Shown piece by piece: positions 42,299 to 62,292 of a stretch of DNA of 64,000 nucleotides. The position numbers and the translations under genes are program-made. The notes beneath the pieces were generated by a model that saw nothing but the letters and a program-made list of their open reading frames with translations, made no database searches and had not been told where the DNA came from. The DNA lies in the NCBI GenBank assembly GCA_902551985.1, contig CACDFI010000003.1:1-64000 (forward strand). Direction: 5' to 3'. Each line of letters starts with the position of its first letter. Within the stretch, counting starts at the first letter, position 1. Origin of the DNA: an uncultured Pelagibacteraceae bacterium. GTDB taxonomy: Bacteria > Pseudomonadota > Alphaproteobacteria > Pelagibacterales > Pelagibacteraceae.

Positions 42299-43252
42299 TT
42301 ATTTTTGTATAGTGTTTAATTTGTTCAACTCCTCTAAGAATTGAGGAAGTGCTTCGAATAAATCAGCTTCTAAGCCGTAGTCTGCGACACTAAAAATTGG
42401 TGCCTCACCATCTTTATTTATAGCCACGATAACTTTACTTTCTTTCATGCCAGCTAAATGCTGGATAGCCCCAGAAATTCCAACTGCTATATATAAGTCT
42501 GGAACTACTACTTTACCTGTTTGTCCAACCTGATGTTCGTTTGTAATATAACCTGCATCAACTGCTGCTCTTGATGCCCCTATTGCAGCATTTAATTTGT
42601 CTGCAACATCAGTTATTAATTTGAAATTCTCACCACTTTGCAACCCTCTTCCTCCAGAAATAACAATTCTAGCTGTTCCTAATTCAGGTCTATCTGATTT
42701 AATTTCCTCTCTGTTTACAAATTTTGTATTTTCAGTTTTATCTGCTGCATCCACTTTCTCAATTTCTGCTGACCCACCTGTGGTTTCAGCCGCCTCAAAT
42801 GATGTTGGTCTTATTGTTATACACTTTTTCTCGTCATTACTTTTGACAGTAGCAAATGCGTTACCAGCATAAATTGGTCTTAGGAATGTATCTGGAGCAA
42901 TTACTTTTATTATATCACTCACTTGAGAAATATCTAATAATGCAGCAATTCTAGGCATTAGATTTTTTCCAAAGGTATTTGCTGAACAGACTATATGAGA
43001 ATATTTATCAGCATGTTTTAAAATTGCTGAAGTATAATTTTCAGCAATATAATTTTCATAAATTTCATTATCCATATGAAGTACTTTTTTTACCAAAGGT
43101 ACCTCAGATAAGGATTTTGCAACGTCATCTGCATTATGACCAATTAATAAAACATGTAAGTCTTGATCTATCTGAGATGCAGCTGTAATTGCATTTAATG
43201 TAAATGATTTGACTTCTTTATTGTTATGCTCTGCTATTAATAAAACTGACAT
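42299..43252 (-). CDS. etfA: Electron transfer flavoprotein alpha subunit
   Basis: A 317-residue protein with the C-terminal FAD-binding signature seen as [57 protein letters not shown] and [18 protein letters not shown]. With EtfB it forms the soluble carrier between flavin dehydrogenases and ETF-QO. It shares one base with the etfB stop, and a 21-base gap leads to the ETF-QO gene. Confidence 0.96.
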
Positions 43253-44001
43253 TATATTACCTTAGCCTCATTTTTTAATTTTTGCACCAACTCCTCAACA
43301 CTAGCAACCTTTATACCTGCTTTTCTTTTAGGTGGTTCCTCAATTTTAATATGTTCTATTCTAGGGTTAGTATCAACTCCTAGATCTGACGCATTAATTT
43401 GTTCAATAGGCTTTTTCTTTGCTTTCATAATATTTGGTAGTGATGCATATCTTGGTTCATTTAGTCTTAAGTCACATGTCACTATTGCAGGTGTATTAAC
43501 TTCAATAGTTTCTAAACCCTCATCAACCTCTCTAGTTACTTCTAATGAATTTTCTTTAACTTCAATTTTTGAGGCAAAAGTAGCTTGAGGCCAGTTTAAA
43601 TGTGCAGCCAACATTTGACCAGTTTGGTTGCAATCATCGTCAATTGCTTGTTTGCCCATGAAAACTAAATCTGGATTTTCTTTTTCAACAATTTTTTTAA
43701 GAATTTTAGAAACAGCAAGAGGTTCTAATACACTATCCACTTTTATATGAATTCCTCTATCCGCTCCAACTGCTAGTGCTTTTCTAACAGTCTCTTGGGC
43801 TTTTTCTTCTCCAACTGTTACAGCTATTATTTCTGAAGCTTTTCCAGCCTCTTTAATTTTAACAGCTTCCTCAATTGCATTATCATCTGGTGGATTAGTT
43901 GACATTTTAACATTGTCTGTCACAACGCCACTGCCATCCTCTTTTACTCTTATTTGGACGTTATAATCAATTACCCTTTTTACAGCGACTAAAATTTTCA
44001 T
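43252..44001 (-). CDS. etfB: Electron transfer flavoprotein beta subunit
   Basis: A 249-residue protein with [20 protein letters not shown] at the start, [18 protein letters not shown] and the beta-subunit signature region with [29 protein letters not shown] (read in parts). It binds AMP and partners with EtfA. Its start shares a base with the stop of the dimethylglycine-dehydrogenase-like gene at 44001, linking the electron donor and acceptor at translation level. Confidence 0.96.
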
Positions 44002-46436: not shown

Positions 46437-46476
46437 GCGATTTTTACCTAATTTTTCTTATAAACAAAACATAATT

Positions 46477-46692
46477 CTAGTAGTCATAATCGTCATCATC
46501 GTCATCTCTCCATCCCATTTGATACATTAGATAAGCTGCGGTTATTACACTAATGACACCTGCAACCATACCAAAATTTACCCCCATCTCTTGTCCAAAA
46601 TAGTACCATCCAATTTGGGTCGCGCCAATTGGCGGGATGCAAAGAATAGCCATTAATATTGCAATTCTAACTGGAAAACTTGGTTTTTTCAT
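46477..46692 (-). CDS. Small membrane protein with acidic tail (71 aa)
   Basis: Not recognised. The start at ATG 46692 (MKKPSFPVRIAIL) overlaps the TAA of the DUF4864-like gene (TAATG). A longer reading would run into that gene. Two hydrophobic segments (about residues 8-22 and 38-55) are followed by YQMGWRDDDDDDYDY, an acidic C-terminal tail of seven Asp and two Tyr that probably faces the cytoplasm. It is the last gene of the long minus-strand series before paralogue 2. Confidence 0.65.
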   Translation of the reverse strand: MKKPSFPVRIAILMAILCIPPIGATQIGWYYFGQEMGVNFGMVAGVISVITAAYLMYQMGWRDDDDDDYDY

Positions 46693-47174
46693 TAGATAGA
46701 TGAACCCATCGGCATAGGTTGAGAGACCGCAGTGGTAAGCCAACAATTTTTTAAAAATCCATCGAGCTCATATTTTTCAACTTGCCATTTAAATTTATAA
46801 TACTTTTTGTCTTTGTCCATAATTGTCACTTCAAAAGTCGATACGCCCTTTGATTTATATACCTCTACAATTTCATAGTTCTCATGGTTTAAAAGCATTG
46901 AGTAGGAATCTGTTTTGATCATATTTTTAAATCTCTCAATAGGTCCTGTTACTCTCTGATTATTTGGGTGCGCAAAAAACCATGTTTGAATTATCCCATG
47001 ATCTTTACTAGGAGTATCATTTTTCATCAAAGCATTAAGTTGAATTTCAATTACTTCTCTAGGTTCAATATCTGGATTTGGTTTTTTTATTTCTGCTTTT
47101 AATACATTTGTAGAAAAAATTAAAAATATAAATACAATAAAAATTCTATAAATGTCTGGCTGTATTTTTAACAT
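46692..47174 (-). CDS. DUF4864-like secreted or membrane-anchored protein
   Basis: About 160 residues when started at ATG 47174 (MLKIQPDIYRIFIVFIFLIFS), which gives a signal or anchor helix. Starts farther upstream (up to 47255) would overlap the reductase gene by more than 100 bases. The core EVIEIQLNALMKNDTP, IQTWFFAHPNNQRVTGPIERF, YSMLLNHENYEIVEVY and the C-terminal WLTTAVSQPMP follow the DUF4864 pattern as I know it. Function unknown. The ribosome site for 47174 is poorly placed, so the exact start is uncertain. Confidence 0.65.
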   Translation of the reverse strand: MLKIQPDIYRIFIVFIFLIFSTNVLKAEIKKPNPDIEPREVIEIQLNALMKNDTPSKDHGIIQTWFFAHPNNQRVTGPIERFKNMIKTDSYSMLLNHENYEIVEVYKSKGVSTFEVTIMDKDKKYYKFKWQVEKYELDGFLKNCWLTTAVSQPMPMGSSI

Positions 47175-47715
47175 CTTCCAAAAACTCAATTCTTTTTTCA
47201 TTTGATACAAATGGTACAGCAAAATATCGTTTATAGGTAATGTCATAAATACCACACTTATTAAAAATACCTTTTTTAATTCTTCTCAGGGGTAAATTTA
47301 AAAAAAAATCTGAAATTGAGAATCTGGGTGAACCATATGTGCAAAAAATCAAAGCCTTTTTGCTTTTTAGCTTCCCAACAGCATATCCATAATTACCAAA
47401 AAGTTTCTTAAATGAAAAAGCCCAAGGTGGCGCTAAAACCTTATCGATCCAACCTTCTACAATAGCAGGCATTCTATAATTCCATATAGGAGCAACTAGA
47501 ACAATTAAATCAGAATCGTCAATTTTTCTTCTGTGATCCAAGACAATATCATCAGCATTTTCACCAGCATATACTGGATCAAATTTTTCTTTATATAAAT
47601 CTACACATTCAACTAAATGACCATTTTCTCTAGCAGATTTTATGAAATTATCTTTTATAGCAGAATTAAAAGATTTATCGTTGTAATGCCCATATACCAA
47701 AAATACTTTTTTCAT
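47146..47715 (-). CDS. Flavodoxin-fold NAD(P)H-dependent oxidoreductase
   Basis: A 189-residue protein of the NQO1/KefF-type quinone reductase group. It has VFLVYGHYNDKSFNSAIKDNF (FMN-binding loop), DLYKEKFDPVY, DDSDLIVLVAPIWNYRMPAIVEGWIDKVL (flavin isoalloxazine contacts), and KALIFCTYGSPR. It reduces quinones or similar acceptors with two electrons. It shares one base with the CoA-binding protein stop and is part of the long minus-strand operon. Confidence 0.83.
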   Translation of the reverse strand: MKKVFLVYGHYNDKSFNSAIKDNFIKSARENGHLVECVDLYKEKFDPVYAGENADDIVLDHRRKIDDSDLIVLVAPIWNYRMPAIVEGWIDKVLAPPWAFSFKKLFGNYGYAVGKLKSKKALIFCTYGSPRFSISDFFLNLPLRRIKKGIFNKCGIYDITYKRYFAVPFVSNEKRIEFLEDVKNTARHL

Positions 47716-48182
47716 TAATCTTTAAGGACTGGAAAAACTGGATTAGATTTTTGAAAAAGTTTTTGGTACTCCTGTTTTATACATCTATTGGAAATAAATT
47801 GGATATTCTCTTTATCTGCTAAAACTTTTGCCTCCTCACTGTGAATTCCGTATTGTAACCATAAAACTTTTGTTCCTTTTTTAATTGCTTCTTTTGCAAT
47901 TCCTTCAGCCTCTTTTGAGGGTCTAAAAACATCAACTATGTCTATTTCTTCCTTTATCTTATCTAAACTTTCAATCATTTGTTCCCCATTTACAATCTCA
48001 CCAACTGCAAAAGGGTTAATAGGAATAACTTTATAACCAAAATTTTGCATATATTTCATAACAACATTTGCTGGTTTTCTCTTAAGATTTTTTCTATCCT
48101 CTCCTTTTTTTTCAGAGCTCACTCCAATCATTGCTATGGTTTTTGATTTTCTCAAAATAGATTTAATTTCATTATCGTTCAT
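47715..48182 (-). CDS. CoA-binding domain protein (YccU-like)
   Basis: A 155-residue protein with a single Rossmann CoA-binding domain: KTIAMIGVSSEKKGEDRKN, VVMKYMQNFGYKVIPINP, IDIVDVFRPSKEAEGIAKEAI and GTKVLWLQYGIHSEEA, ending with a typical CIKQEYQKL. Proteins of this size bind CoA or a related nucleotide; no reaction is known. It overlaps the reductase gene and lies 21 bases after the enoyl-CoA hydratase stop. Confidence 0.83.
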   Translation of the reverse strand: MNDNEIKSILRKSKTIAMIGVSSEKKGEDRKNLKRKPANVVMKYMQNFGYKVIPINPFAVGEIVNGEQMIESLDKIKEEIDIVDVFRPSKEAEGIAKEAIKKGTKVLWLQYGIHSEEAKVLADKENIQFISNRCIKQEYQKLFQKSNPVFPVLKD

Positions 48183-48203
48183 TATTTTCTTTCTGAATAA
48201 CTA

Positions 48204-48977
48204 TTATTTATTTTTCCAACTAGGTTTTCTTTTTTGTAAAAAAGCTGATATTCCCTCTTTTGCATCTTGCGAAGCCATATTTACAGTCATCATTTTACTT
48301 GTAAACTTATAAGCATCTCCAAGTGGCATCTCTAATTGTTTATAAAATGCTTGTTTTCCGATCTTAATTGTTAAATTTGATTTTGAAGAAATTTTTTTTG
48401 CAATTTTTAAAACTTCTATATTTAGTTTTTTGTTTGAAAAACAATCATTAATCAAACCAATTTCCTTAGCGTATTTTGCATTTATTGGATCTCCAGTCAG
48501 AAGCATCTTCATCATGATTTTACGAGTTACTTTTCTACTCACAGCAACCATCGGAGTACTGCAGAAAAGTCCTATATTTACTCCTGGTGTTGCAAAGGTG
48601 GCATTTGTTGTACTGTAAGCAAGGTCACAACTTGCGGCTAACTGACATCCAGCTGCATAAGCTGCACCATGTACTTTTGCAATAACAGGCTTCTTTCCTT
48701 CAACAATTTTCATCATTAATTTTGAGCAAAGATTAAATAATTTTAAGTGATTTAATCTATTTTTAATTCCACCAACCTCTTTAAGATTATGGCCGGCGCT
48801 GAATCCTTTACCTGATCCCTCTAATATTATTACTCTTGTATTATCATCCTTATCTAATCGAGTAAAAGTATTCAAAAGATCCCTTAAAGTTTTAAATGAA
48901 AGTGAATTATAAGTTTTAGGATCATTAATTATTACATTTGTAATTCCGTTTCCTAATTTTTTTGTTTTTACATTCAT
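48204..48977 (-). CDS. Enoyl-CoA hydratase/isomerase family protein
   Basis: A 257-residue crotonase-fold protein. The oxyanion-hole segments are GSGKGFSAGHNLKEV (first) and AKVHGAAYAAGCQLAASCDLAYSTTNATFATPGVNIGLF (second, read in parts). The usual catalytic Glu positions in the GxxE helix are not obvious, so isomerase or hydrolase activity is as likely as hydratase. It lies seven bases after the nucleotidyltransferase gene. Together with AcuI it could serve propionyl/acryloyl-CoA chemistry, which is inference. Confidence 0.85.
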   Translation of the reverse strand: MNVKTKKLGNGITNVIINDPKTYNSLSFKTLRDLLNTFTRLDKDDNTRVIILEGSGKGFSAGHNLKEVGGIKNRLNHLKLFNLCSKLMMKIVEGKKPVIAKVHGAAYAAGCQLAASCDLAYSTTNATFATPGVNIGLFCSTPMVAVSRKVTRKIMMKMLLTGDPINAKYAKEIGLINDCFSNKKLNIEVLKIAKKISSKSNLTIKIGKQAFYKQLEMPLGDAYKFTSKMMTVNMASQDAKEGISAFLQKRKPSWKNK

Positions 48978-48984
48978 ATTGTAA

Positions 48985-49359
48985 TTATTTTAACTCACCA
49001 TCTTCACGCATTTTAGCTCTAATTTTTGTGGCAGAAATTTTTTGTATTTCTTCAGACAATACTATCTCCTCAATTTTGTAACCAACTCCTCTCCCGTAAC
49101 AAATATTTGTAATATTTGGCACCATCATTATTTTAAATCTTCCTTCAAATTCAGGATTTAATTTATTTTCAATATTTTTTTTTACCGTTTCAAAGTCGAA
49201 TGGATTGTCATCAACTCCTTGAACGTCTCTTATTTGAATACACACTTGACCGGTCTTTTTGATGATCTCTTTAAATAAAGTATAGTGACCCTCATGAAAT
49301 GGCTGCCATCTTCCAAGCATTTGTGCTGTTGGTTTTTTATTATCCCATTCATAACTCAT
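48985..49359 (-). CDS. Small HxGH-type nucleotidyltransferase
   Basis: A 124-residue nucleotidyltransferase-fold protein. GRWQPFHEGHYTLF contains the HxGH nucleotide-binding motif, and ISATKIRAKM at the end is the ISxTxxR motif, as in NMN adenylyltransferases (NadM type) and cytidylyltransferases. It transfers an NMP group to a phosphate-bearing substrate that is not known. It overlaps the kinase gene by one base. The pairing suggests the kinase makes the phosphate and this enzyme activates it, or that the two form a small complex; both are inference. Confidence 0.78.
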   Translation of the reverse strand: MSYEWDNKKPTAQMLGRWQPFHEGHYTLFKEIIKKTGQVCIQIRDVQGVDDNPFDFETVKKNIENKLNPEFEGRFKIMMVPNITNICYGRGVGYKIEEIVLSEEIQKISATKIRAKMREDGELK

Positions 49360-49766
49360 TATGATATCTCCTTTATTATTTTATCCGCCCAAAACTTAGC
49401 ATCTTGAGTAGTTACATGAAAATCATATTTTTCTGGTTTGACAAACATTTGATTAGTATCGTCAAACCTTCCTTCTTTAATCGTGTCTACCCAAATAACA
49501 AAATCTGCAGGGAATAAACTTCTTGCTTCTGGAGTTGGGCAAATAAAATCTGCCACAACATAATTTCCTTGATTTTTCAGCTTTAAAGCAAAGTCTGCCA
49601 TTCTTTTAGCTTGTCTTTTTCTACCCTCCTCAGAAAAATCCCAATCATTTGCTTCTTTTCTAACTTCGTCAGCATTTAATCTTTTTGCATTCAGTTTTGG
49701 AGCAAGTTCTTCTGCCAATGTTGTTTTGCCAGCCCCAGGCAAACCCATAATTAAAACTATTTTCAT
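49359..49766 (-). CDS. Small P-loop kinase, adenylylsulfate-kinase (CysC)-like
   Basis: A 135-residue P-loop protein with Walker A GLPGAGKTT, LNADEVRKEANDWDFSEEGR, and VVADFICPTPEARSLFPADFVIWVDTIKEGRFDDTN (read in parts), which follows the CysC order ISAFISPYR...VDTPLEVCE. It is shorter than true CysC (about 200 residues). SAR11 cells are known to lack assimilatory sulfate reduction, so APS is an unlikely substrate; a different small alcohol or nucleotide is more plausible. It is coupled by one-base overlaps to the nucleotidyltransferase and the DddP-like gene. Confidence 0.75.
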   Translation of the reverse strand: MKIVLIMGLPGAGKTTLAEELAPKLNAKRLNADEVRKEANDWDFSEEGRKRQAKRMADFALKLKNQGNYVVADFICPTPEARSLFPADFVIWVDTIKEGRFDDTNQMFVKPEKYDFHVTTQDAKFWADKIIKEIS

Positions 49767-51001
49767 TAAATTTGTTCTAAAGGATGATGAGACATTAATT
49801 CTAATCCATTTTCGCCAACTAAATATTGTTGTTCTAATTTCACTCCCTCATGACCTCCAACTTCGCCGATATAACTTTCTAGGGTAATTGTCATATTTTT
49901 TTGAAATATACCGCTTCTTTCTCCACCATCAGTCGGATATCTAATTGCTGGCCACTCATCACATAAACCTATTCCATGAAGCATGACTGAATATCTATTT
50001 CCGTAATATTTTTCAGGAAGTATCCATGCCTTTTCAGTAAATTCTCTAAATGATACTCCATCTTTAATTAATCTTGAATTATAGTCAATCTGCTCAACTG
50101 CTGTTGAATAAATTTTTTTTTGATGTTCATTAAATTTGTTTCCACAAACAAAAGCTCTAGAAATATCTGCACAATATCCATAAGGGCCTACCATATCTGT
50201 ATCAAAGGATACGATCTCACCATCTTGAATAATCTTATTACTACTTTCTTGCATCCAAGGATTGGTTCTAGAGCCTGAAGATAATATTCTACACTCTATC
50301 CACTCTCCACCATTTTCAATGTTCGTTTTATGTAAAATCGACCATAACTCATCTTCAGTAATTCCTGATTTCAAATAATCTCTCATTTTAATTATTCCAA
50401 TATCAGCAACATCTAAAGCTGCTCGCATGCATTTAATTTCTTCAGACGATTTAATAACTCTAGCCTGTTCAAGTATTTTTTTCGCTTCTAAAACTTGAAT
50501 TCCTTTTTTATTAAGCTCATTTACGGCTGGACCATTGATTACATCAATTGCGATTTTTTTACTTTTAAAATAAGAGTTAGATAAATCATTTACTTCATTG
50601 ACCCATTTTTTAAGTTGCAACTCTGATTGGTCACCATTGCTAAAATAATCCCAAGTAATTGCTGGTCTTATTTCATCTATTAAATTGAGACCTTTAGATA
50701 ATATTTCACAGTTAAAATATTCATATAATATTGTTGGACCATCAACAGAGATAAAACAATATCTTGTAAGATTATGCATATTATAAACACTCATATTCAC
50801 AGTATCTAATGCATACCTTACATTTACTGGATCAAATAAAATACATGCCTCTATATTATTTTTCTTTAATTCATTTCTTAATCTATCAAGTCTATAAGAT
50901 CTAAGTTCGTCAAAATCTATTTCATCTTCTCTTAATCTTTTTTTTGAAATATATTTCTTAATTGGTTGGTTTTCTGAAAGAATTTTTCTGTTAAACTTCA
51001 T
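49766..51001 (-). CDS. DddP-like M24-family metalloenzyme (candidate DMSP lyase)
   Basis: A 411-residue protein close to DddP of Roseovarius/Ruegeria over its whole length. Matching blocks are FDPVNVRYALDTVNMSVYN, GGEWIECRILSSGSRTNPWMQE and IVSFDTDMVGPYGYCADISRAF. All metal ligands are kept (Asp267, Asp269, Asp279, His342, Glu375, Glu390), and LHGIGLCDEW supplies Asp348, equivalent to the DddP catalytic Asp377. DddP cleaves dimethylsulfoniopropionate to dimethyl sulfide and acrylate. The neighbours (BHMT, betaine-type transport, Rieske enzyme) also fit a different quaternary substrate, so the reaction is not proven. Confidence 0.8.
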   Translation of the reverse strand: MKFNRKILSENQPIKKYISKKRLREDEIDFDELRSYRLDRLRNELKKNNIEACILFDPVNVRYALDTVNMSVYNMHNLTRYCFISVDGPTILYEYFNCEILSKGLNLIDEIRPAITWDYFSNGDQSELQLKKWVNEVNDLSNSYFKSKKIAIDVINGPAVNELNKKGIQVLEAKKILEQARVIKSSEEIKCMRAALDVADIGIIKMRDYLKSGITEDELWSILHKTNIENGGEWIECRILSSGSRTNPWMQESSNKIIQDGEIVSFDTDMVGPYGYCADISRAFVCGNKFNEHQKKIYSTAVEQIDYNSRLIKDGVSFREFTEKAWILPEKYYGNRYSVMLHGIGLCDEWPAIRYPTDGGERSGIFQKNMTITLESYIGEVGGHEGVKLEQQYLVGENGLELMSHHPLEQI

Positions 51002-51003
51002 CT

Positions 51004-51444
51004 CTATAACATCTGTACACCAACTCCTGTTTTTGGATAGGTGTATAAATTATAATTTGCACAAAGCTCATCTCCTGGTTTCAAATCTTTTATTGAAACC
51101 ATAAAAAAATATTTTGCGTCTGGTTTCTCTCTTAAATTATAATACATGTTTTCTAAATTATCATCATTTTCGTTAAATTTTTTTGCTTTTGCGGTAGGAT
51201 CAATTGGATCACCAAACTTTAATGTAGGTAAAATATTTGATACCATTCTTTGAACTGTAGGATTGTCAGAATGATTATAAAAACCACCTAATGGAGTTCT
51301 TATATATTTATTTTCAAACTGCTCATCTCTTATGTGAGTAATTCCGATAAAAGTATTAGCTTTAATTTCTTTGGTTGCGAATAATCCCAAACCTTCGATT
51401 GGTGAACTTTTTATTGTTAATGCATCTGGTAAAGGTCTGTACAT
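51004..51444 (-). CDS. SET-domain protein (putative protein-lysine methyltransferase)
   Basis: The start at ATG 51444 (MYRPLPDALTIKSSP) leaves a 14-base gap after the Rieske stop. An upstream GTG at 51483 would overlap it. The 146 residues form a minimal SET domain: IEGLGLFATKEIKANTFIG (N-SET), GGFYNHSDNPTV with the NHS-type SAM contact, and KPGDELCANYNLYT near the C-terminus. SET proteins methylate lysine with SAM. It is two bases before the DddP-like gene, suggesting a small-molecule or protein methylation step in this pathway. Bacterial SET proteins of this size are rarely characterised. Confidence 0.78.
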   Translation of the reverse strand: MYRPLPDALTIKSSPIEGLGLFATKEIKANTFIGITHIRDEQFENKYIRTPLGGFYNHSDNPTVQRMVSNILPTLKFGDPIDPTAKAKKFNENDDNLENMYYNLREKPDAKYFFMVSIKDLKPGDELCANYNLYTYPKTGVGVQML

Positions 51445-51458
51445 ATATTTCGCACTTT

Positions 51459-52634
51459 CTACACAATGTGAGTTGCCACCCACTTGTGAAATTGATGTGT
51501 TGGATTATCCATATCAGGAGAAAAATTTCCACCATTATATGCATGTGAGTTGCGGCCTAATTGCATTCTTTGAATTATACCAACATCTTCTTTTTGAATA
51601 TCTTCCCACAATTTATGATTTTGTTTTCTTAATGATTTAAATTCTAATGATTTTGCGGCTTTTTCACCTACATAATATATTTCCATGTGCTCTAAAGTTT
51701 TTTTATGACTAATGGGTTCTAACCAATATGCGTAGAAATGATCTTTATGTATACCTAACATAACATTGGGAAACAAAGCTACATACTCTGCAATATTTTC
51801 TTTTTCTTTGGGCCAGTTAGGAAAGCAAGGAAATTTTTTCTTACCTTTAAATTTTGGATTGTAAACAACTGTGCCTTGGCCTGCAAAGCGGTTTGGTAAT
51901 CCTTGAATATGATAGTGATCTTCAATTTTTGAATAAGAATTTAAACCTGGATGAACCCATGGCAAATGATAACTTTCACAATAATTTTCAATTGCAAATT
52001 TCCAATTACATTTTGCATTTATTTTAAAATAACCAAAATCATTTGCATGATTAATTAATTTTCTATCTTTTTTTTTCCAAAATTTAGCCCACCTATCACT
52101 TAAGGGTTTAATATATTTTTCAAATGGAATTTCGTTGTTACTAATATTAATAAAAATTAAATCTAACCAAACACATGATCTTATTTCTTTTAAATTGTTT
52201 TTATTTTTTTTAAATTTTGGGCTACTATGTTGGTTCATCCCACCTATATGAGGTGTTGCAATTAGCTTTCCATCTGATGTGTATGACCATGAATGATAAG
52301 GACATCTGATAACATTTCTAATATTGCCTTTTTTGTTTACTAGCTTTACTCCTCTATGACTACAGACGTTATGAAAAACTTTTATCTGATCTTTTTTATT
52401 CCTTACTAAAAATAATGGCAGTCCTAACAAGTTAAATGGTTTTACATCGCCGATATTTGGCAAAGAACTTGCTACTCCTATTACAGTCCATTTATTTTCA
52501 AATATTTTCTCTCTTTCTATTAAAGTATAATCTTTACTTGTATAACATTCGTTGGGGAGTCCATGTGCTTTTGAAATTGGTTTCTTAACTATATCTAATT
52601 TTTTTTTATCTATAATTTTATAAATTGCTGACAT
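51459..52634 (-). CDS. Rieske non-heme iron oxygenase, alpha-subunit type
   Basis: A 391-residue oxygenase. The Rieske cluster is formed by Cys91, His93, Cys111 and His114 (CSHRG and CPYHSW). The mononuclear iron site is His223, His228 (ENYCESYHLPWVHPG) and Asp350, with the bridging acidic residue nearby. The arrangement is like choline monooxygenase, glycine betaine demethylase (GbcA) and stachydrine or carnitine oxygenases. Given BHMT and the dimethylglycine-dehydrogenase paralogue next door, oxidative N-demethylation is likely. No reductase subunit is seen in the window; the flavodoxin-fold reductase at 47146 is not of the usual type. Confidence 0.88.
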   Translation of the reverse strand: MSAIYKIIDKKKLDIVKKPISKAHGLPNECYTSKDYTLIEREKIFENKWTVIGVASSLPNIGDVKPFNLLGLPLFLVRNKKDQIKVFHNVCSHRGVKLVNKKGNIRNVIRCPYHSWSYTSDGKLIATPHIGGMNQHSSPKFKKNKNNLKEIRSCVWLDLIFINISNNEIPFEKYIKPLSDRWAKFWKKKDRKLINHANDFGYFKINAKCNWKFAIENYCESYHLPWVHPGLNSYSKIEDHYHIQGLPNRFAGQGTVVYNPKFKGKKKFPCFPNWPKEKENIAEYVALFPNVMLGIHKDHFYAYWLEPISHKKTLEHMEIYYVGEKAAKSLEFKSLRKQNHKLWEDIQKEDVGIIQRMQLGRNSHAYNGGNFSPDMDNPTHQFHKWVATHIV

Positions 52635-52635
52635 T

Positions 52636-53265
52636 TTATTTTGTCACTTCATATAGACCAAGCCATGCATTTACATCTTTACTAGCAATATAATCAGATT
52701 TAAAAAACTCTATTTCTTTCCATTTATTTTCATTTTTTAATTGTTTGATTTTTTTATCAAATCCATATTCCTCATATATTCCTTCGTTAATAGTGAAACA
52801 AATTAGACCTTTATTTTTAGTAATTCTAATAAACTCATCTAATGCAGGTGGTTTTACATGTCCAAAAGTAAATGTGCCCACACACATTAAAGCATCATAT
52901 TGATCATCCTTTTCCTTGATTGGTTTATTTAAATCTACTTTATCTAATTTTTTATAAAGGTTATTTGGAACCAAATCTAAAAGTTTTTGGGATAGATCGG
53001 CACCAAAAAAATTAGTGAAACCATACTTTTTCAATTCTACACCAACCAATCCAGTTCCACATCCAGCATCATAAATATTAATATCTTTTTCTTTTTGATG
53101 TTTATTGAAAACTTCTGCTGTTTCCTTTGGGCCAGTATAATTCCATTCAACCATATCTTTATCATATTTATTATCCAAACCCCATTCGTCATAAAAATCC
53201 ATCACCTCTTTTGTTTCTTTTAGTTTATAAATTGGAACTTTGTTACCTACATCTTTTTGGGCCAT
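52636..53265 (-). CDS. Class I SAM-dependent methyltransferase
   Basis: A 209-residue protein. The SAM motif I is INIYDAGCGTGLVGVELKKYG, followed by ADLSQKLLDLVPN, DLNKPIKEKDDQYDALMCVGTFTFGHVKP and a C-terminal strand WLGLYEVTK. The overall pattern is like the Williams-Beuren-type or methyltransferase-25-like group that acts on small molecules. The substrate is unknown. The start shares a base with the stop of paralogue 3, and the end is one base before the Rieske start, so the three are probably translated together. Confidence 0.85.
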   Translation of the reverse strand: MAQKDVGNKVPIYKLKETKEVMDFYDEWGLDNKYDKDMVEWNYTGPKETAEVFNKHQKEKDINIYDAGCGTGLVGVELKKYGFTNFFGADLSQKLLDLVPNNLYKKLDKVDLNKPIKEKDDQYDALMCVGTFTFGHVKPPALDEFIRITKNKGLICFTINEGIYEEYGFDKKIKQLKNENKWKEIEFFKSDYIASKDVNAWLGLYEVTK

Positions 53266-55670: not shown

Positions 55671-55671
55671 G

Positions 55672-56712
55672 TTAGTATTTTATTTCTTTATTGACGTTTT
55701 TCAATGTCTTGTCTGTCCCATGGTGAAAATGTTTAGTCATATCTGGCATGTACTTCATGGCAATTGGTTTTTTACCAACCGCAACAGCCATTTCTCTAAC
55801 ATGATGAGCTTCAGCACCACAACAAATACCGATTAAATTAATTTTCTCTTTAAGACATTCTTTTGCAAATTCAGCCATTTCAAATCTGTTACAATATAAA
55901 TTATCTAAGGCAACAGGGAATGCATTTCCTCCAGGAATGCAGTCACATCCGTGATCTGTTTGATTCAAAAATCCTGGTTCTTCCTCTGTTGTTCTATATG
56001 GAACAGGAAGACCTGCAACATGACAGGAAACTTTTTTTCTTATTTTTTTTAAAAGTTTCATGGTCATTTCTGGACCTCTATAACAATTCAAACCAACAAC
56101 ATCAGCACCAAGATCTTCAATTATTTTACATGCGTCTTCAGCAGTGTGGCCATCTCTTGTCAAATCACCACGAGGTATTGCATAATTGGCAACTGCAATC
56201 AAACCTTCATCCTTAATTGCTTTTAAAGCTATCTTCATTTCATCTACCCAATTAATTGTTTCTGCAACTACAAAGTCAACTCCTGCCTCTTTGGCCCAAA
56301 GCACTTGCTCTTCGTACATCTTTTGACATTCTTTGAATGAGTTTTTGTCTTTTGGATCAAAAATATTTGTATTAGCAACATCTCCACAAACCATTAAGTC
56401 TAAATCTTTAAATTCTTTCGCAGCATCCTTTGCAATTTTAAGTGCATTTTTTTGCATCGGCTCTAGCAAATGTTCTTTTCCAATAATTCTTAATTTCTCT
56501 CTATGTCCATAATAGGTGAAAGCTTGAACAATATCTGAACCAGCTCTAATAAATTCTCTATGTAATTGTGTAACTACTTCTGGATGCTCTAAAACTACTT
56601 CTGGCACAAATGGACCTGCAGAAAGATATCCTCTCCTTTCCATCGCAAATAAATATCCCTCTGCGAATATTACGGGACCCTCATCTAATCTTGATAATAA
56701 ATTTTTATTCAT
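55672..56712 (-). CDS. bhmT: Betaine-homocysteine S-methyltransferase
   Basis: A 346-residue homocysteine S-methyltransferase-family enzyme. The zinc site is Cys210 (GLNCYRGP) with Cys297 and Cys298 (GICCGAEAHH). Further motifs are ADIVQAFTYYGHREKL-type substrate loop (SDIVQAFTYYGHREK) and VVAETINWVDEM. It transfers a methyl group from glycine betaine, or a similar onium compound, to homocysteine, giving methionine and dimethylglycine. It is the promoter-proximal gene of the long minus-strand operon. There is no clear Shine-Dalgarno sequence before 56712. Confidence 0.9.
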   Translation of the reverse strand: MNKNLLSRLDEGPVIFAEGYLFAMERRGYLSAGPFVPEVVLEHPEVVTQLHREFIRAGSDIVQAFTYYGHREKLRIIGKEHLLEPMQKNALKIAKDAAKEFKDLDLMVCGDVANTNIFDPKDKNSFKECQKMYEEQVLWAKEAGVDFVVAETINWVDEMKIALKAIKDEGLIAVANYAIPRGDLTRDGHTAEDACKIIEDLGADVVGLNCYRGPEMTMKLLKKIRKKVSCHVAGLPVPYRTTEEEPGFLNQTDHGCDCIPGGNAFPVALDNLYCNRFEMAEFAKECLKEKINLIGICCGAEAHHVREMAVAVGKKPIAMKYMPDMTKHFHHGTDKTLKNVNKEIKY

Positions 56713-56844
56713 ATTTATTTAATAATTTATTTCTAAATAAAGAGAGTATAAAGACAATTTTAACACAACTCAAGGTTGAAACTAGTTTGCAATTTTTCCA
56801 TCTATATGTTCTGATGATTTATAATTAATTAATTAGGAGAAATA
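56713..56844. promoter_or_regulatory. Divergent control region between bhmT operon and betaine transporter operon
   Basis: This 132-base gap must hold promoters for both the minus-strand pathway operon and the plus-strand transport operon. On the plus side TTAGGAGAAATA is a good ribosome site for 56845. On the minus side no Shine-Dalgarno is seen, and the bases just before the start form only an AT-rich weak hairpin (TTTATTT-AG-AAATAAA). The word AAACTAGTTT (56780-56789) is a perfect 10-base palindrome and a candidate operator. In Pelagibacter ubique bhmT is known to follow a SAM-V riboswitch. I could not recognise one here by eye, which is weak negative evidence. Confidence 0.5.
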
Positions 56845-57855
56845 ATGAAAATCAAAAAATTACTTCTATCTGCTGCTGTAATATTTGGACTAACTTCTTT
56901 TGGAAGTGTTGCCAACGCAGCTTGTGGGAACATAACTATCGCTAATATGAACTGGGCTTCAGCAAACTTCATGGCTGAAGTTGACAAAATCATATTAGAA
57001 GAAGGTTACGGATGTTCTGTTGAATTGGTGCCAGGTGCAACAATGCCTACATTTACATCTATGCAAGAAAAAGGTGAGCCAGATGTTGCTCCAGAATTTT
57101 GGGCTAACGCTGCAATCATTGCTTTAAATAAAGCAGTTGATGAAGGAAAAATGCACTCACTTAATAAAGCACCTATTACTGGTTTAGGTGAAGGATGGTG
57201 GGTGTTACCTGCTACTTTAGAAAAACATCCTGAACTTACAACTGCTGAAGCAATTTTGGCAAGACCGGATCTATTTCCTCATCCAGAGGATCCATCAAAA
57301 GGTGGGTTTCATATTTGTCCTCCAGGATGGAACTGTGAACTAAGTAATAGAAATCTTTACAAAGCTTTTGACATGGAAGCAAAAGGTTGGGCTATTGTTG
57401 AAACAGGTTCTGCTGCAGGATTAGATGGATCAATTGCTAAAGCTGCTGAAAGAGGTGAAAACTGGTTTGGTTACTATTGGTCACCAACAGCTATCATTGG
57501 TAAATATGATATGAGAGCTGTGGACATGGGAGCTTGGGGTGGAAAAGATAACTGGGATAAATGTATAGTTTTACCAGAACAAGAATGTGGAGACCCTAAA
57601 GCAACTTCATGGACAAAATCTGAAGTTTACACAATCGTAACTGACAATTTCAAAAATACAGCTGGAAGTGCTGGTATGGATTATTTCAAAAAAAGAACTT
57701 ATCCAGGTCCAGTAATGAACGGTATGTTAGTTTGGATGGGTGAAAACCAAGCAGAGGGTGCTGATGCTGCAATTGAATTCCTAACAAACCAAGAAGATGT
57801 TTGGTCTAAGTGGGTTTCAAGTGAAGCTGCTGCAAAAATAAAAAAAGCACTTTAA
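56845..57855 (+). CDS. proX: Glycine betaine/proline betaine-type periplasmic binding protein
   Basis: A 336-residue ProX/OpuAC-family protein with a signal peptide (MKIKKLLLSAAVIFGLTSFGS to near NAA). The ligand pocket of this family is an aromatic box; aromatic-rich stretches occur at NMNWASANF, APEFWANA, GEGWWVLP, GENWFGYYWSP and MDMGAWGGKDNW-like segments. Cys pairs (CPPGWNC, DKC..QEC) suggest disulfides. It binds quaternary ammonium or sulfonium compatible solutes for import. It is first in the operon, with a strong ribosome site, and is followed by a perfect hairpin before the permease gene. Confidence 0.88.
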   Translation: MKIKKLLLSAAVIFGLTSFGSVANAACGNITIANMNWASANFMAEVDKIILEEGYGCSVELVPGATMPTFTSMQEKGEPDVAPEFWANAAIIALNKAVDEGKMHSLNKAPITGLGEGWWVLPATLEKHPELTTAEAILARPDLFPHPEDPSKGGFHICPPGWNCELSNRNLYKAFDMEAKGWAIVETGSAAGLDGSIAKAAERGENWFGYYWSPTAIIGKYDMRAVDMGAWGGKDNWDKCIVLPEQECGDPKATSWTKSEVYTIVTDNFKNTAGSAGMDYFKKRTYPGPVMNGMLVWMGENQAEGADAAIEFLTNQEDVWSKWVSSEAAAKIKKAL

Positions 57856-57870
57856 TAAAATAAAATATTG

Positions 57871-57896
57871 CCAAACCCACTCTTTAGTGGGTTTGG
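57871..57896 (+). terminator. Perfect hairpin between binding protein and permease genes (attenuator)
   Basis: CCAAACCCACT (57871-57881) pairs perfectly with AGTGGGTTTGG (57886-57896) across a CTTT loop, 11 bp in all. Only two T bases and an A-rich run follow, so complete termination is unlikely. The hairpin may instead stabilise the upstream message or cause partial termination, giving more binding protein than permease. It is the third binding-protein/permease boundary in the window with such a structure. Confidence 0.75.
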
Positions 57897-57908
57897 TTAA
57901 GTAAAATT

Positions 57909-58793
57909 ATGGATTTCTTTAATAAAATTCCTGTAATGGATCGAACAGCTTTAAGAGAGCTTAAAAAAGGAATAGACTCTAGTTTTAAAGAATTTTCAAG
58001 AGCCTATGGAGATGGAATTGAAGGTTTTTTTGATCCACTTTTGCATTTTTTAATTTGGTTGGAAAAATTATTAGTCAATAGTCCTTGGCCATTAGTAATA
58101 GGTGTATTTGCTTTGTTGGCATGGATTGGATCAAGAAGTATTAAACTGGTAATAGGTACAATAATTTGTTTTATGATTATTGGTTATTTTGGAATGTGGA
58201 AAAACTGTATGGCTACTGTTGCTATAATTTCTGTTTCTACACTTGTCTGTATTGTTGTTGGAATACCTATTGGAGTATTAATGTCTAAATCAAGCAGAGC
58301 AGAAAAAGCAATTTTACCCGTTTTGGATATGATGCAAACTATTCCAAGTTTCGTTTACCTTATACCTATAATTATGCTTTTAGGTATTGGAAAAGTGCCT
58401 GGTTTATTGGCAGTTTGTATTTATGCTTTACCACCGGTAGTAAGGCTGACAAATCTTGGAATAAGAGAAGTAGATAAAGAAACACTTGAGGCAAGTGAGG
58501 CTTTTGGTGCAACTCCAATGCAAAAATTAAAATCTGTACAAATACCATTGTCGTTACCAACAATTTTTGCTGGAATTAACCAAACAATTATGATGGCTTT
58601 AGCTATGGTGGTAATTGCATCAATGATAGGCGTTAAAGGTCTTGGAGTACCTATTTTGCAGGCTATTTCTAATCAATATTTAGCACTTGGAATGATGAAT
58701 GGTTTAGCAATAGTGGCTCTAGCAATCATCTTTGACAGAGTTACACAGCAGTATGGTCAAAGAATTCAAAAACACAGAGGTCAGAAAAAGTAA
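57909..58793 (+). CDS. proW: Glycine betaine/proline betaine ABC transporter permease
   Basis: A 294-residue ProW-type permease. An N-terminal soluble segment (to about residue 50) precedes six or seven membrane helices. The core shows ISVSTLVCIVVGIPIGVLMS, LDMMQTIPSFVYLIPI and the EAA loop LEASEAFGATPMQKLKSVQIPLSLP. It forms the channel for ProX-delivered betaines. The partner ATPase (ProV) is not encoded in this window on either strand, so it must lie elsewhere. Confidence 0.92.
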   Translation: MDFFNKIPVMDRTALRELKKGIDSSFKEFSRAYGDGIEGFFDPLLHFLIWLEKLLVNSPWPLVIGVFALLAWIGSRSIKLVIGTIICFMIIGYFGMWKNCMATVAIISVSTLVCIVVGIPIGVLMSKSSRAEKAILPVLDMMQTIPSFVYLIPIIMLLGIGKVPGLLAVCIYALPPVVRLTNLGIREVDKETLEASEAFGATPMQKLKSVQIPLSLPTIFAGINQTIMMALAMVVIASMIGVKGLGVPILQAISNQYLALGMMNGLAIVALAIIFDRVTQQYGQRIQKHRGQKK

Positions 58794-58855
58794 CCCTGAC
58801 ACTTTGATCTAATATTTTTCTAGACAGTTATTTTAAAATAAATAATTATTCATTA

Positions 58856-59584
58856 ATGAATTTTTCATTAGAAATTGGACCTCACACTGATCTTGATACT
58901 TTGCCAAGTGTGAAAGATGTGTATGTCACAATGCTACCTGGAGGTGATTATAAGGAAACTGCTGACAAGTCTGGAGATTTGGTAAAAAAAGGTTTTAACC
59001 CAGTTCCTCATTTTCCAGCTAGATCAATTAATAGCGAAAGTGAATTAAAAGAGTATGTTTTAAGATGTAAAGATTTAGGTGTAAAACAAGTTCTTGTTAT
59101 TGGAGGTAGTCGTGAACCAATTGGAAAATTTGATAGCTCCTATCAGATATTAGAAACAGGATATTTTGATGGGATAAAGATCGGAATTGCTGGACATCCT
59201 GAGGGGAGTCCTGATATATCCGATTCAGATTTAGAAAAAGCTATGATAGATAAAAAGCCTTATGCTGATTATATAGTTACTCAATGGTTACTTGATGCTC
59301 AGCCTATCGTTGATTTTATTTCTAAACAAACGATACCAGTTCATGTTGGAATAACTGGGCCCATGAAAATTTCAAGCTTAATAAAGTTTGCAAATATTGT
59401 AGGGGCAAAAAATTCCATTAACTTTCTTAAATCTAATTTTACTAAGGCATTAGATTTATTGAAACCTAAAGACCCTAATGATCTAATTGGGAAAGTTAAA
59501 TCGCATACTGATTATTTTCACATTTATACATTCGGCGGCTTGAAGGAAACAAACAAGTGGTTGAAGGAGAATAACTATGTCTAA
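58856..59584 (+). CDS. Methylenetetrahydrofolate reductase-like protein (short form)
   Basis: A 242-residue protein of the MTHFR superfamily. The TIM-barrel pattern is visible as VYVTMLPGGDYKET, NPVPHFPARSI, GVKQVLVIGGSREPIG, IGIAGHPEGSPDI and DYIVTQWLLDA, with VGITGPMKISSLIKFA near the end. It is shorter than MetF (about 290). It probably handles methylene- or methyltetrahydrofolate produced by the GcvT-like protein, whose start it overlaps by eight bases. Direction and cofactor are not determinable here. Confidence 0.8.
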   Translation: MNFSLEIGPHTDLDTLPSVKDVYVTMLPGGDYKETADKSGDLVKKGFNPVPHFPARSINSESELKEYVLRCKDLGVKQVLVIGGSREPIGKFDSSYQILETGYFDGIKIGIAGHPEGSPDISDSDLEKAMIDKKPYADYIVTQWLLDAQPIVDFISKQTIPVHVGITGPMKISSLIKFANIVGAKNSINFLKSNFTKALDLLKPKDPNDLIGKVKSHTDYFHIYTFGGLKETNKWLKENNYV

Positions 59585-60935
59585 AGAATTTGACTATAGT
59601 AAGCTAAGACACGTAACATCAGTAGATCAATCTGATAGAAAAGTGCCTTATAATTTAAGACAAAGCGGACCAACAAAAGTTGAAATGTTAATTTCAACAC
59701 GTGTAAGAAAATCACCATACTGGCATTTATCAATGCAAGCTGGTTGTTGGAGAGCAACTGTATACAATCGTATTTATCATCCAAGAGGCTATGTAAAACC
59801 TGAAGATGGTGGTGCAATGGTCGAGTACGATGCAATTGTTAATCATGTAACAATGTGGAATGTTGCTGTTGAAAGACAAATTAGAGTAAAGGGTCCTGAT
59901 GCAGAAAAATTTGTAGACTATGTAATTACAAGAGATGCTACAAAAATCTCTCCAATGAGAGCAAGATATGTAATTCTTTGTAATGCATATGGCGGCGTAT
60001 TAAATGATCCTATACTTTTAAGAATATCGAAAGACGAATTTTGGTTCAGTTTATCTGATAGTGATATAGGACTTTATTTACAAGGGGTTAATTCTGATGA
60101 GAGATTTAATGTAGAAATAGATGAAATAGATGTAAGTCCGGTTCAAATTCAAGGACCAAAGTCAAAGGCATTAATGAAAGATTTATGTGGTGATCAAGTT
60201 GATTTCGATAATATGCCTTTCTATGGTTTAGCTGAAGCTAAGGTTGGGGGAAGAAGTTGCGTGATATCTCAATCAGGGTTTTCTGGTGAGGCCGGATATG
60301 AAATATATTTAAGAGAATGTACTTTATATGCAGAGGATATGTGGAATGCAGTTCTTGAAGCAGGAAAAAAGCATAACCTAATGGTTATTGCACCTGCACA
60401 CCACAGAAGAATTCAAGCTGGAATTCTTTCTTGGGGTCAAGATATGGACAATCAACACAATCCATTCCAATGTAATTTAGGTTATCAAGTTTCATTATCC
60501 GGTAAAGGTGAATGGAATAAAAAAGCTGACTATGTTGGAAAAAAAGCCCTTGAAAAAATGAAAGCTGATTTAAAAGCTGGGCATAAACCTTATAAACTTC
60601 AATTGGTTGGATTAGAATTAGGTGGAAAGCCAATTGAGGAATACGCTCCTGATTTTTGGTTAATTTCAGATGAAGGTGGTGGAGAGCCAATTGGGTTTAT
60701 TACTTCGCCTTGGTATCACCCTGAAAAAAAACAAAATATTGCAATGGGTTATGTACCATTCGATGGGACACTAAATGCTAATGGTTTTCCTAAAGGAAAG
60801 CTAGGAACTAAATTTAAGGTACACTTGCCTGAAAAATATTCTGAAACTCCAGGCAAACCTGTAGATGCAGTAGTTGTTGATATACCATTTAAAGAGTCTT
60901 ACAACGCGAATACAAGAGAAGTTGTAAAAGGTTAA
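59577..60935 (+). CDS. GcvT/DmdA-like folate-dependent demethylase or aminomethyltransferase
   Basis: A 452-residue GCV_T-family protein, longer than DmdA (about 370) and free-standing, without an FAD domain. The core reads YDAIVNHVTMWNVAVERQIRVKGPDAEKFVDYV (residues 80-112), RARYVILCNAYGGVLNDPILL, SPVQIQGPKSKALM, GEAGYEIYL, and a C-terminal GFITSPWYHPEKKQNIAMGYVPF (read in parts). Relatives move methyl or methylene groups from amines, sulfonium or aryl-O-methyl compounds to tetrahydrofolate. AAGGAG lies inside the end of the MTHFR-like gene. With ProXW and the MTHFR-like protein it forms an uptake-and-demethylation unit. Confidence 0.82.
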   Translation: MSKEFDYSKLRHVTSVDQSDRKVPYNLRQSGPTKVEMLISTRVRKSPYWHLSMQAGCWRATVYNRIYHPRGYVKPEDGGAMVEYDAIVNHVTMWNVAVERQIRVKGPDAEKFVDYVITRDATKISPMRARYVILCNAYGGVLNDPILLRISKDEFWFSLSDSDIGLYLQGVNSDERFNVEIDEIDVSPVQIQGPKSKALMKDLCGDQVDFDNMPFYGLAEAKVGGRSCVISQSGFSGEAGYEIYLRECTLYAEDMWNAVLEAGKKHNLMVIAPAHHRRIQAGILSWGQDMDNQHNPFQCNLGYQVSLSGKGEWNKKADYVGKKALEKMKADLKAGHKPYKLQLVGLELGGKPIEEYAPDFWLISDEGGGEPIGFITSPWYHPEKKQNIAMGYVPFDGTLNANGFPKGKLGTKFKVHLPEKYSETPGKPVDAVVVDIPFKESYNANTREVVKG

Positions 60936-60945
60936 ATAATTATGT

Positions 60946-60966
60946 GGGAGGAGATTAACTCCTCCC
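60946..60966 (+). terminator. GC-rich hairpin after the GcvT-like gene
   Basis: GGGAGGAG (60946-60953) pairs with CTCCTCCC (60959-60966) over a 5-base loop, ten bases after the stop at 60935 and nine before the ATG at 60976. No T run follows, so it is not a standard terminator. The 5' arm also looks like a Shine-Dalgarno sequence, so it may hide a ribosome site or shield the upstream message. Confidence 0.55.
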
Positions 60967-60975
60967 CTAAATCTG

Positions 60976-61521
60976 ATGCTAGCACAATTTCTAGAGATTT
61001 TTTTTAAATCGTTAAAATTAGATAGAAGCTTATACAAAGATAATAAATACTTTGGAGAAGCTGCAATATATTTTGCTGGTCTTGTAATGATACTTGATGG
61101 AGTTGCAGGAGCCGTAGCGGCAAATTCAATAATAAAAACATCAATAGGCATATCTGGTTTGACAGCTTTACTAACATGGTTTGTTTGGGCAATTTTTATT
61201 TTTGTAATAGGAGTAAAAATCTTTCCAGACAAAGGCAGCAGAGTTCCATTTAAAAAAGTATTAATTGCCGTAGGGTATGCTCACGCACCAGGTTTAATAA
61301 GATTTTTTGCAGTTACACCAGACTTAGTTTTGCCTATTATTTTTCTTACACAGTTTTGGATATTTGCTTCTTTAATTATATCTACAAAACAAATATTAAA
61401 TTTAAAGTCTAATTTAAAATCTTTTGGAGTAGTGTTTTTGTCTTTTCTTATAATTGCTTTTCTCTCAATAACATTCATTATAAATAGAATGAACTCAATT
61501 CCAGTTAGCAATATTAGTTAA
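60976..61521 (+). CDS. YIP1-family membrane protein
   Basis: A 181-residue protein with about five membrane helices, beginning MLAQFLEIFFKSLKLDRSLY and containing FGEAAIYFAGLVMILDGVAG, TWFVWAIFIFVIGVK, and IAVGYAHAPGLIRFFAVTP, the last resembling the YIP1 consensus. The function is unknown in bacteria. The start is the only good ATG; no clear ribosome site is free, because the GGAGGAG lies in the hairpin 23 bases upstream. The 3' end overlaps the convergent small zinc-ribbon gene by four bases. Confidence 0.75.
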   Translation: MLAQFLEIFFKSLKLDRSLYKDNKYFGEAAIYFAGLVMILDGVAGAVAANSIIKTSIGISGLTALLTWFVWAIFIFVIGVKIFPDKGSRVPFKKVLIAVGYAHAPGLIRFFAVTPDLVLPIIFLTQFWIFASLIISTKQILNLKSNLKSFGVVFLSFLIIAFLSITFIINRMNSIPVSNIS

Positions 61522-62286: not shown

Positions 62287-62292
62287 ACGAAA

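Follow-up and report, generated by a model that had tools for sequence, protein, structure and literature searches.

Do adjoining genes for the uptake and breakdown of methylated onium compounds form one catabolic route, or do they bring together parts that come and go on their own? The question is raised by a locus at positions 46477-61521 of the 64,000-nucleotide stretch analysed here (the window), from an uncultured Pelagibacteraceae bacterium (GCA_902551985.1, contig CACDFI010000003.1). An earlier note had seen in it a single, fuller catabolic route, perhaps for a substrate other than glycine betaine. All the open reading frames (ORFs) that it named are present and in place, and their domain labels hold in a Pfam profile search, with weak scores for the MTHFR-like gene (metF) and a small nucleotidyltransferase gene (NTase) (table 1). 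We propose, at a probability of roughly 0.7, that the locus consists of a conserved backbone for one-carbon (C1) and electron transfer and of an exchangeable cargo slot, which lies between metF and a P-loop kinase gene (kin). In the window the slot holds genes for an onium-binding protein and permease (proXW), bhmT, a demethylating dehydrogenase (dmgdhB), a methyltransferase (MT), a Rieske oxygenase, a SET-domain protein and a DddP-like M24 protein. The earlier observation is confirmed, as is its theme of methylated-onium uptake and breakdown with genes that the textbook betaine route lacks. The proposal of a single route is partly supported.

With the Rieske protein as query, 80 Pelagibacteraceae loci were found on 79 contigs, and their gene order was established by tblastn and ORF clustering. 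Two of them (L056 and L057) share contig CACHTB010000021.1, where an inverted duplicate of part of the locus on a 15 kb single-cell contig is perhaps an amplification chimera. Another 24 loci were added: 20 draws anchored on the NTase, and four genomes fetched earlier, of which G011 and G013 were taken from the NTase list and G003 and G005 first met in Rieske and kinase searches. Both ends of the slot, metF and kin, are visible in 72 of the 104 loci compared (55/80 Rieske-anchored and 17/24 added); in 30 of the remaining 32 the cargo reaches the end of the available sequence.

The metF-kin interval shows 12 layouts among these 72 loci, 11 filled and one empty. The order of the window itself is the most frequent (24 loci), followed by the same order without the SET gene (12), EgtB-EgtD-MT-Rieske (nine, five Rieske-anchored and four added), proXW-MT-Rieske-SET (seven) and Rieske alone, in 1.29 kb (five, three of them from the four earlier-fetched genomes). 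The slot is empty in four loci (L298, L306, L310 and L314), with 47, 84, 106 and 130 bp between its ends against 9090 bp in the window. The other layouts have the bhmT-dmgdhB pair inverted (three loci), an extra protein, N17, with a weak arginine-deiminase-family match (two), an extra agmatinase-like gene, N21 (two), MT alone (two, L311 and L312), EgtB-EgtD alone (one) or Rieske-bhmT-dmgdhB-SET-M24 (one). Whichever layout contains bhmT or dmgdhB has the two adjoining, and proW or proX occupy the slot in 0/17 added loci showing both ends. The gene-neighbourhood comparison across SAR11 that had been suggested therefore finds linkage in relatives: among the 55 Rieske-anchored loci showing both ends, 24 share the complete cargo order of the window, which thus is not due to chance. 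Three loci (L039-L041) share 98% identity with the window in amt and 96-97% in the NTase but are missing bhmT, dmgdhB and M24. Such near-identical flanks with different cargo suggest that cargo is swapped in place between close relatives, possibly by recombination in the flanks. Overall, the site is fixed, its flanks are conserved, and both empty and differently filled alleles exist, with two exceptions (L037 and L304, below). A literature search limited to a few queries found no paper describing the metF-kin slot.

The genes around the slot behave differently from those within it. Among the 20 NTase-anchored draws, kin, NTase and the genes for an enoyl-CoA hydratase family protein (ECH) and a CoA-binding protein are found in every one, against MT in 12, Rieske in 11, M24 in six, bhmT in four and SET in one. 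In all 24 added loci the cargo counts are MT 12, Rieske 15, M24 7, bhmT 5 and SET 2, compared with 24 for ECH, 24 for the CoA-binding gene and 23 for the DUF4864 gene; kin and NTase occur together in 24/24, with a gene, N3, between them in three (L301, L310 and L313). Since kin-NTase is present in all 20 draws, the pair lies outside the exchangeable set. Moreover, metF is kept where the slot is empty, and kin, NTase, ECH and the CoA-binding gene persist without any cargo gene of the window. The SET, kinase/NTase, MT and Rieske genes had all been described as without a place in the standard pathway; SET, Rieske and MT are indeed optional cargo, but kin-NTase is part of the backbone. The NTase is present in 200 of 248 Pelagibacterales genomes, and amt adjoins metF also in L160 (G011). 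The flavodoxin-like gene is not seen in several loci (e.g., L298 and L312), while etfB is followed in L040 by ETF_alpha (etfA) and ETF-QO genes.

Table 1. Genes of the locus and of its left flank in the window, with position, strand, place in the locus and profile or structure matches.
Feature	Position	Strand	Place	Matches and remarks
amt, GcvT/DmdA-like aminomethyltransferase	59577..60935	+	backbone	GCV_T 136 bits; best PDB match 3tfh, E 1e-45
metF-like	58856..59584	+	left slot edge, backbone	MTHFR 22.1 bits, just under cut-off 24
cargo slot (metF to kinase)	49767..58855			about 9.1 kb of fill
proW, onium ABC permease	57909..58793	+	cargo	BPD_transp_1 90.8 bits
proX, onium-binding protein	56845..57855	+	cargo	OpuAC 159 bits
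bhmT	55672..56712	-	cargo	PF02574 143.7 bits (cut-off 22); human BHMT 1lt7, E 8e-45
dmgdhB, FAD/folate demethylating dehydrogenase paralogue	53265..55670	-	cargo	DAO, FAO_M, GCV_T, GCV_T_C
MT, METTL27-like S-adenosylmethionine (SAM) methyltransferase	52636..53265	-	cargo	Methyltransf_11/25; 7qcb, E 5.7e-18
Rieske non-heme oxygenase, CntA/GbcA-like	51459..52634	-	cargo	Rieske and Ring_hydroxyl_A
SET-domain protein	51004..51483	-	cargo, frequently missing	SET 38.6 bits (cut-off 22.4)
M24 protein, DddP-like	49766..51001	-	cargo	M24 domain; DddP 4rzy, E 8.4e-81
kin, APS-kinase-like P-loop kinase	49359..49766	-	right slot edge, backbone	APS_kinase (PF01583) 45.7 bits (cut-off 21.1)
NTase, HxGH adenylyltransferase-like, 124 amino acids	48985..49359	-	backbone	CTP_transf_like 21.3 bits (cut-off 21, marginal)
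ECH	48204..48977	-	backbone	ECH_1 182 bits; NCBIfam PRK08139 337.7 (cut-off 313)
CoA-binding-domain protein	47715..48182	-	backbone	CoA_binding_2 95.5 bits
flavodoxin-fold NAD(P)H oxidoreductase-like	47146..47715	-	semi-variable	Flavodoxin_2 113.7 bits
DUF4864 protein	46692..47255	-	backbone	PF16156 38.9 bits
orf89, small protein	46477..46746	-		no Pfam match; seen again in many loci
dmgdhA, dimethylglycine/sarcosine-dehydrogenase-like	44001..46436	-	backbone, beyond 46477-61521	90% identical in L160
etfB, electron-transfer flavoprotein (ETF) subunit	43252..44001	-	backbone	ETF 151 bits

Gene spacing in the window follows the tight pattern described earlier (most junctions overlaps or gaps under 25 bases) on the minus strand, where each of the ten junctions between bhmT and the flavodoxin-like gene is an overlap or a gap of at most 21 bases and the genes may be co-transcribed. 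The plus strand departs from it: proX-proW, proW-metF and amt-yip1 are 53, 62 and 40 bases apart, and metF-amt is the sole overlap. Nor does the locus end at 46477, where its boundary had been drawn, as the minus-strand row runs on through dmgdhA into etfB. Beyond the other end, a DUF3726 gene, a 550-amino-acid gene and an M19 dipeptidase gene (window 61678-63945) are also neighbours of a Rieske gene carried by a Pseudomonas plasmid (L085). The interval from NTase to the CoA-binding gene is a second variable place: the 24 added loci show seven different fillings of it, with ECH alone in 12. In L061 (12808-14519) and L161 its occupants are a 2Fe-2S ferredoxin and a methanethiol-oxidase-like protein, the latter scoring 163 bits against a cut-off of 650, and in L075 (15545-16393) a HalD-family (PF23169, 45 bits) 2-oxoglutarate oxygenase-like gene separates NTase from ECH; it belongs to a cluster, N4, with 20 members across the 80 loci. 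As for the metF-kin slot, EgtB and EgtD, of ergothioneine synthesis, occur there in L059-L061, L065, L081, L296, L297, L299, L300 and L313; in the one locus tested, L061, they exceed the NCBIfam cut-offs (489 of 360 and 349 of 290.9, respectively).

From these observations we envisage a Pelagibacteraceae backbone with amt-metF in one direction and kin-NTase-ECH-CoA-binding...dmgdhA-etfB(-etfA-ETF-QO) in the other, the cargo sitting between the divergent starts of metF and kin. ProXW would import a betaine or sulfonium compound, BhmT would pass a methyl group to homocysteine and leave dimethylglycine, and DmgdhB would carry out a folate-linked demethylation. Methionine and methylene-folate would then carry off the methyl groups, and ETF the electrons. 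With C1 and ETF outlets supplied by the backbone, new cargo could plug in.

Several points weigh against such a slot. The locus L037 carries the cargo order of the window (proXW, bhmT to M24) without metF or kin, and L304 has kin without metF, next to an O-antigen-ligase-like gene; the slot is thus not the only home of the cargo. ECH and the flavodoxin-like gene are hard to fit into betaine demethylation. In five SAR11 genomes that each carry the Rieske gene at this locus (G000, G003, G005, G011 and G013) no match to PF00175, the FNR-type reductase family, was found (0/5; control 10/14). The sharing of a stretch by M24 and Rieske in four of 26 Rieske loci outside Pelagibacterales speaks in favour, but as a raw count without a chance expectation (stretches of 5.7-19 kb; two of 28 loci were dropped, with no Rieske ORF kept). 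As to sampling, the 20 NTase draws were picked by eye down the match list and all come from the genus of the window, the 80 Rieske-anchored loci always contain Rieske and are blind to its absence, genomes may overlap between the two samples, and the genomes compared are mostly single-cell drafts. Of the two exceptional loci themselves, L037 (1-20211) has the cargo amid ProV-like, GBBH-like, BKACE and carnitine-dehydrogenase-like genes, and in L304 (9599-18001) the O-antigen-ligase-like gene and other unassigned ORFs upstream of kin replace metF, through rearrangement or assembly error.

These exceptions make the exchangeable slot marginally weaker and, correspondingly, make marginally stronger the idea of one dedicated operon, whose members would all take successive steps on a single substrate other than glycine betaine. 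The close gene spacing from bhmT through to the flavodoxin-like gene and the 24 loci with the layout of the window agree with it, as does the bhmT-to-M24 block found outside the slot in L037. So do two genomes from outside the order. G504 has Rieske, an aldehyde dehydrogenase gene, a DapA-like gene, an FAD oxidase gene and bhmT in a row, with M24 close by, and in G277 MT-M24 is divergent from two bhmT copies. Together with the 4/26 loci, they indicate that cargo genes associate outside SAR11 too, which speaks for our own reading as well. However, the same place is taken elsewhere by Rieske alone, MT alone, MT-Rieske without bhmT or EgtB-EgtD, and kin-NTase-ECH remain when the slot is empty. 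The fuller route of the earlier note does not survive in this form, given that Rieske, MT, SET, M24, bhmT-dmgdhB and proXW occur in differing combinations while kin, NTase, ECH and the CoA-binding gene stay without them, and we regard a dedicated operon as improbable.

The exchangeable slot leaves the substrates of each cargo gene to be considered. The pathway for glycine betaine and C1 compounds described for SAR11 (PMC3160333) likewise comprises bhmT, DMGDH, AMT, metF and an ABC transporter, and in strain HTCC1062 metF (SAR11_1264) is beside AMT (SAR11_1265), as in the window. There, however, bhmT (SAR11_1173) is apart from the locus, while the window has a 50%-identical subfamily inside the slot with dmgdhB. 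Two BhmT subfamilies can indeed be recognised: the window type is 86% identical to the protein of G013 and 83% to that of G002, but 50% to that of G011 (L285, HTCC1062-like), and G277, outside Pelagibacterales, carries both. PMC5069961 likewise reports that the bhmT genes of HTCC1062 and HTCC7211 are not close. In G011, bhmT adjoins OsmC-like and OrdL-like genes with SAM-V matches, as that paper lists for SAR11_1171-1173. The bhmT of HTCC1062 has SAM riboswitches (PMC5069961), in contrast to the window, where bhmT is likewise a betaine-homocysteine methyltransferase gene but an Rfam search of 44000-64000 found no match over gathering scores. The control L285 gave two SAM-V matches, L161 (G013) and L286 none; riboswitch control of the bhmT of the window was accordingly rejected. 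This absence of SAM-V from the window, L161 and L286 fits a catabolic rather than a methionine-supplying role of the window-type BhmT. In this context, SAR11 has been proposed to couple betaine demethylation to methionine synthesis via Bhmt (Mausz et al., PMC12478193; query SAR11_1173).

The genome G002 (L286), from another SAR11 family, offers a clue to the substrate. There, bhmT-dmgdhB is preceded by genes resembling those for BKACE, carnitine dehydrogenase and gamma-butyrobetaine dioxygenase, which proV, proW and proX adjoin on the opposite strand; the best NCBIfam matches of the preceding genes (L-carnitine dehydrogenase, gamma-butyrobetaine dioxygenase and a 3-keto-5-aminohexanoate cleavage relative) are all under curated cut-offs. 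The position of bhmT-dmgdhB among carnitine-to-betaine-like genes favours glycine betaine as the substrate of the pair, and betaine demethylation is its likeliest role. The suggestion of a substrate other than glycine betaine may thus apply to Rieske, M24 and MT, but less probably to bhmT-dmgdhB. In one pairwise alignment with human BHMT, the window protein keeps Y77 and E159 and has Phe for W44 and Thr for Y160, four positions to which we assign betaine-binding roles; the L285 type has Asn at position 77. ProX has a single PDB match at E 1e-5, 7yle (E 3.5e-60). On our mapping of the alignment, it retains seven of the eight listed pocket residues of RnDmpX, a DMSP (dimethylsulfoniopropionate)-binding protein (PMC10030565), with A153 replaced by Asn. 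The ATPase gene, proV, lies outside the locus, with four ProV-like ATPases (45-56% identity) elsewhere in the genome. The context of L286 and the ETF genes of the backbone would also suit a plain glycine betaine pathway, with import by ProXW and demethylation by BhmT, DmgdhB and DmgdhA, to which Rieske, M24, MT and SET would be mere hitch-hikers. We think this quite unlikely, as Rieske and M24 share stretches outside SAR11 and keep their active-site residues.

These residues are well preserved in both proteins. The Rieske protein matches the carnitine monooxygenase CntA (6y8j, E 1.2e-29) over 23-369, most of its length, and the ligands C91, H93, C111 and H114 and the bridging E220 are all kept, as in CntA and GbcA. 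It differs from these in a low score against the GbcA NCBIfam equivalog (124.8 bits, cut-off 670) and in the lack of a PF00175 reductase match in the five SAR11 genomes. The Rieske enzyme probably opens another quaternary ammonium substrate by C-N oxidation. Homologues of gbcAB are reported as low in abundance (PMC12478193). A literature search on a homarine operon, considered for the Rieske role, found no paper on one, and a search for the HTCC1062 tags SAR11_1260 to SAR11_1264, supplements excluded, found mentions of 1264 only and none of the adjoining Rieske and kinase genes.

One could alternatively assign Rieske and its partners to proline betaine or hydroxyproline betaine. A homologue in L151 stands in order with DapA-like, aldehyde dehydrogenase and FAD-oxidase genes, and one in L086 with MR/MLE and DHDPS genes, neighbours of a kind linked to hydroxyproline betaine. 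Yet carnitine monooxygenase is a closer structural match than 3vca, presumably a stachydrine demethylase, and inspection of the SAR11 loci by eye revealed neither a DapA-like nor an MR/MLE gene, so that we rate this assignment as very unlikely. Across the 26 non-Pelagibacterales loci, six have an aldehyde dehydrogenase gene, 12 a LysR-like gene and nine none of the genes sought.

All eight DddP residues compared (D295, D297, D307, Y366, H371, D377, E406 and E421), whose metal-binding or catalytic roles we assume, are conserved in the M24 protein, which is probably a lyase of the DMSP or DMSOP (dimethylsulfoxonium propionate) type, although its score against the NCBIfam DddP model (348.1 bits) is under the equivalog cut-off of 600. 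An ectoine hydrolase was also considered and rejected, the DddP match being far better (348 vs 39 bits). A published survey included a count of DddP-like Pelagibacterales sequences (PMC8520302). Against the DmdA NCBIfam equivalog, the amt product scores 240.5 bits, under the cut-off of 410.

The kin-NTase pair at the right edge of the slot raises a question of its own. Homologues of the two are fused, into a protein of about 245 amino acids, in two Stenotrophomonas phages (L087 and L088) and many viral contigs. Among marine viral contigs (L163-L275) the fused form is common, and its NTase reaches 83% identity with its SAR11 counterpart, a maximum that omits contigs at 91-92%, possibly host DNA. 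Might the pair be a miniature synthetase of 3'-phosphoadenosine 5'-phosphosulfate (PAPS), which would serve sulfotransferases and be unrelated to osmolytes? In a model of the fused phage protein (pLDDT 80.8), the kinase half finds an adenosine 5'-phosphosulfate (APS) kinase as its best VIA match (Z 18.8, root-mean-square deviation (rmsd) 2.4, 139 residues), followed by gluconate kinase (15.9). The first 30 VIA rows consist of APS kinases, PAPS synthetases, ATP sulfurylases (C-terminal part aligned) and one chain titled APE1195. PAPSS1 aligns with the fused model over 236-250 residues with the same domain order, at an rmsd of 11-16. The APS kinase fold is thereby seen on the fused phage homologue, and the kinase of the window is supported by its PF01583 score. 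Also in favour are a sulfotransferase-cluster gene at most three genes from kin or NTase in 11 of 30 kin-anchored viral loci (one member of the cluster was tested for identity) and the presence of PF00685 sulfotransferases in 5/5 SAR11 genomes, with PF01747 (ATP sulfurylase) in 0/5.

However, a true PAPS synthetase differs in its second half, for the NTase has 124 amino acids and no PF01747 match. Its model (pLDDT 85.8) finds phosphopantetheine adenylyltransferases (PPAT) first (best VIA Z 11.2), and in a Foldseek search an ATP sulfurylase first appears at rank 47; ATP sulfurylases share their fold with PPAT and nicotinamide mononucleotide (NMN) adenylyltransferases (NMNAT), and the fold searches do not tell the three apart. 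Sulfotransferases stand near the pair in just 1/80 NTase-anchored viral loci, and PF13469 is found in four of the five SAR11 genomes but is missing from that of the window. Using 20 of the 48 genomes without NTase, PF00685 was found in 20/20, compared with 27/30 with it. Sulfotransferases being as frequent without the NTase as with it, co-occurrence does not support a PAPS synthetase. Twelve of the same 20 genomes have no APS_kinase match, though six of the eight with a match have one scoring above kin; an extra match occurs in 2/10 genomes with NTase. A PAPS synthetase, our main reading of the pair until the co-occurrence went against it, is now retained as a possible but on balance unlikely rival.

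A NadR-like salvage pair, composed of a riboside kinase and an NMN adenylyltransferase, is another candidate that we regard as unlikely. The NTase matches NMNAT models in profile searches and NMNAT structures at Z 10.5 (24-25% identity), the kinase weakly matches the NadR kinase region, and in one phage the fused gene adjoins a NADAR gene. On the other hand, the kinase half is closest to APS kinases, and no NAD gene was recognised among the SAR11 neighbours. The absence of NadR among the structure matches listed for either model carries no weight. Combined with the exchangeable slot, the sulfate reading would picture the locus as a C1 and electron docking station with a plug-in osmolyte slot, whose edge gene belongs to a phage-shared miniature PAPS synthetase letting sulfate-reduction-deficient SAR11 and their phages activate sulfate, a scenario that we put forward as doubtful.

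An exchangeable site for genes that import and demethylate betaine, carnitine-like and sulfonium compounds would explain strain differences in osmolyte use and would serve as a marker predicting which strain consumes which osmolyte. The analysis also singles out two testable enzymes, the DddP-like M24 protein and a Rieske oxygenase for which the usual reductase was not found in the five SAR11 genomes, as well as the phage-shared kinase-NTase pair. For SAR11, whose genomes are very small, the slot may be a means of changing which compounds they eat.

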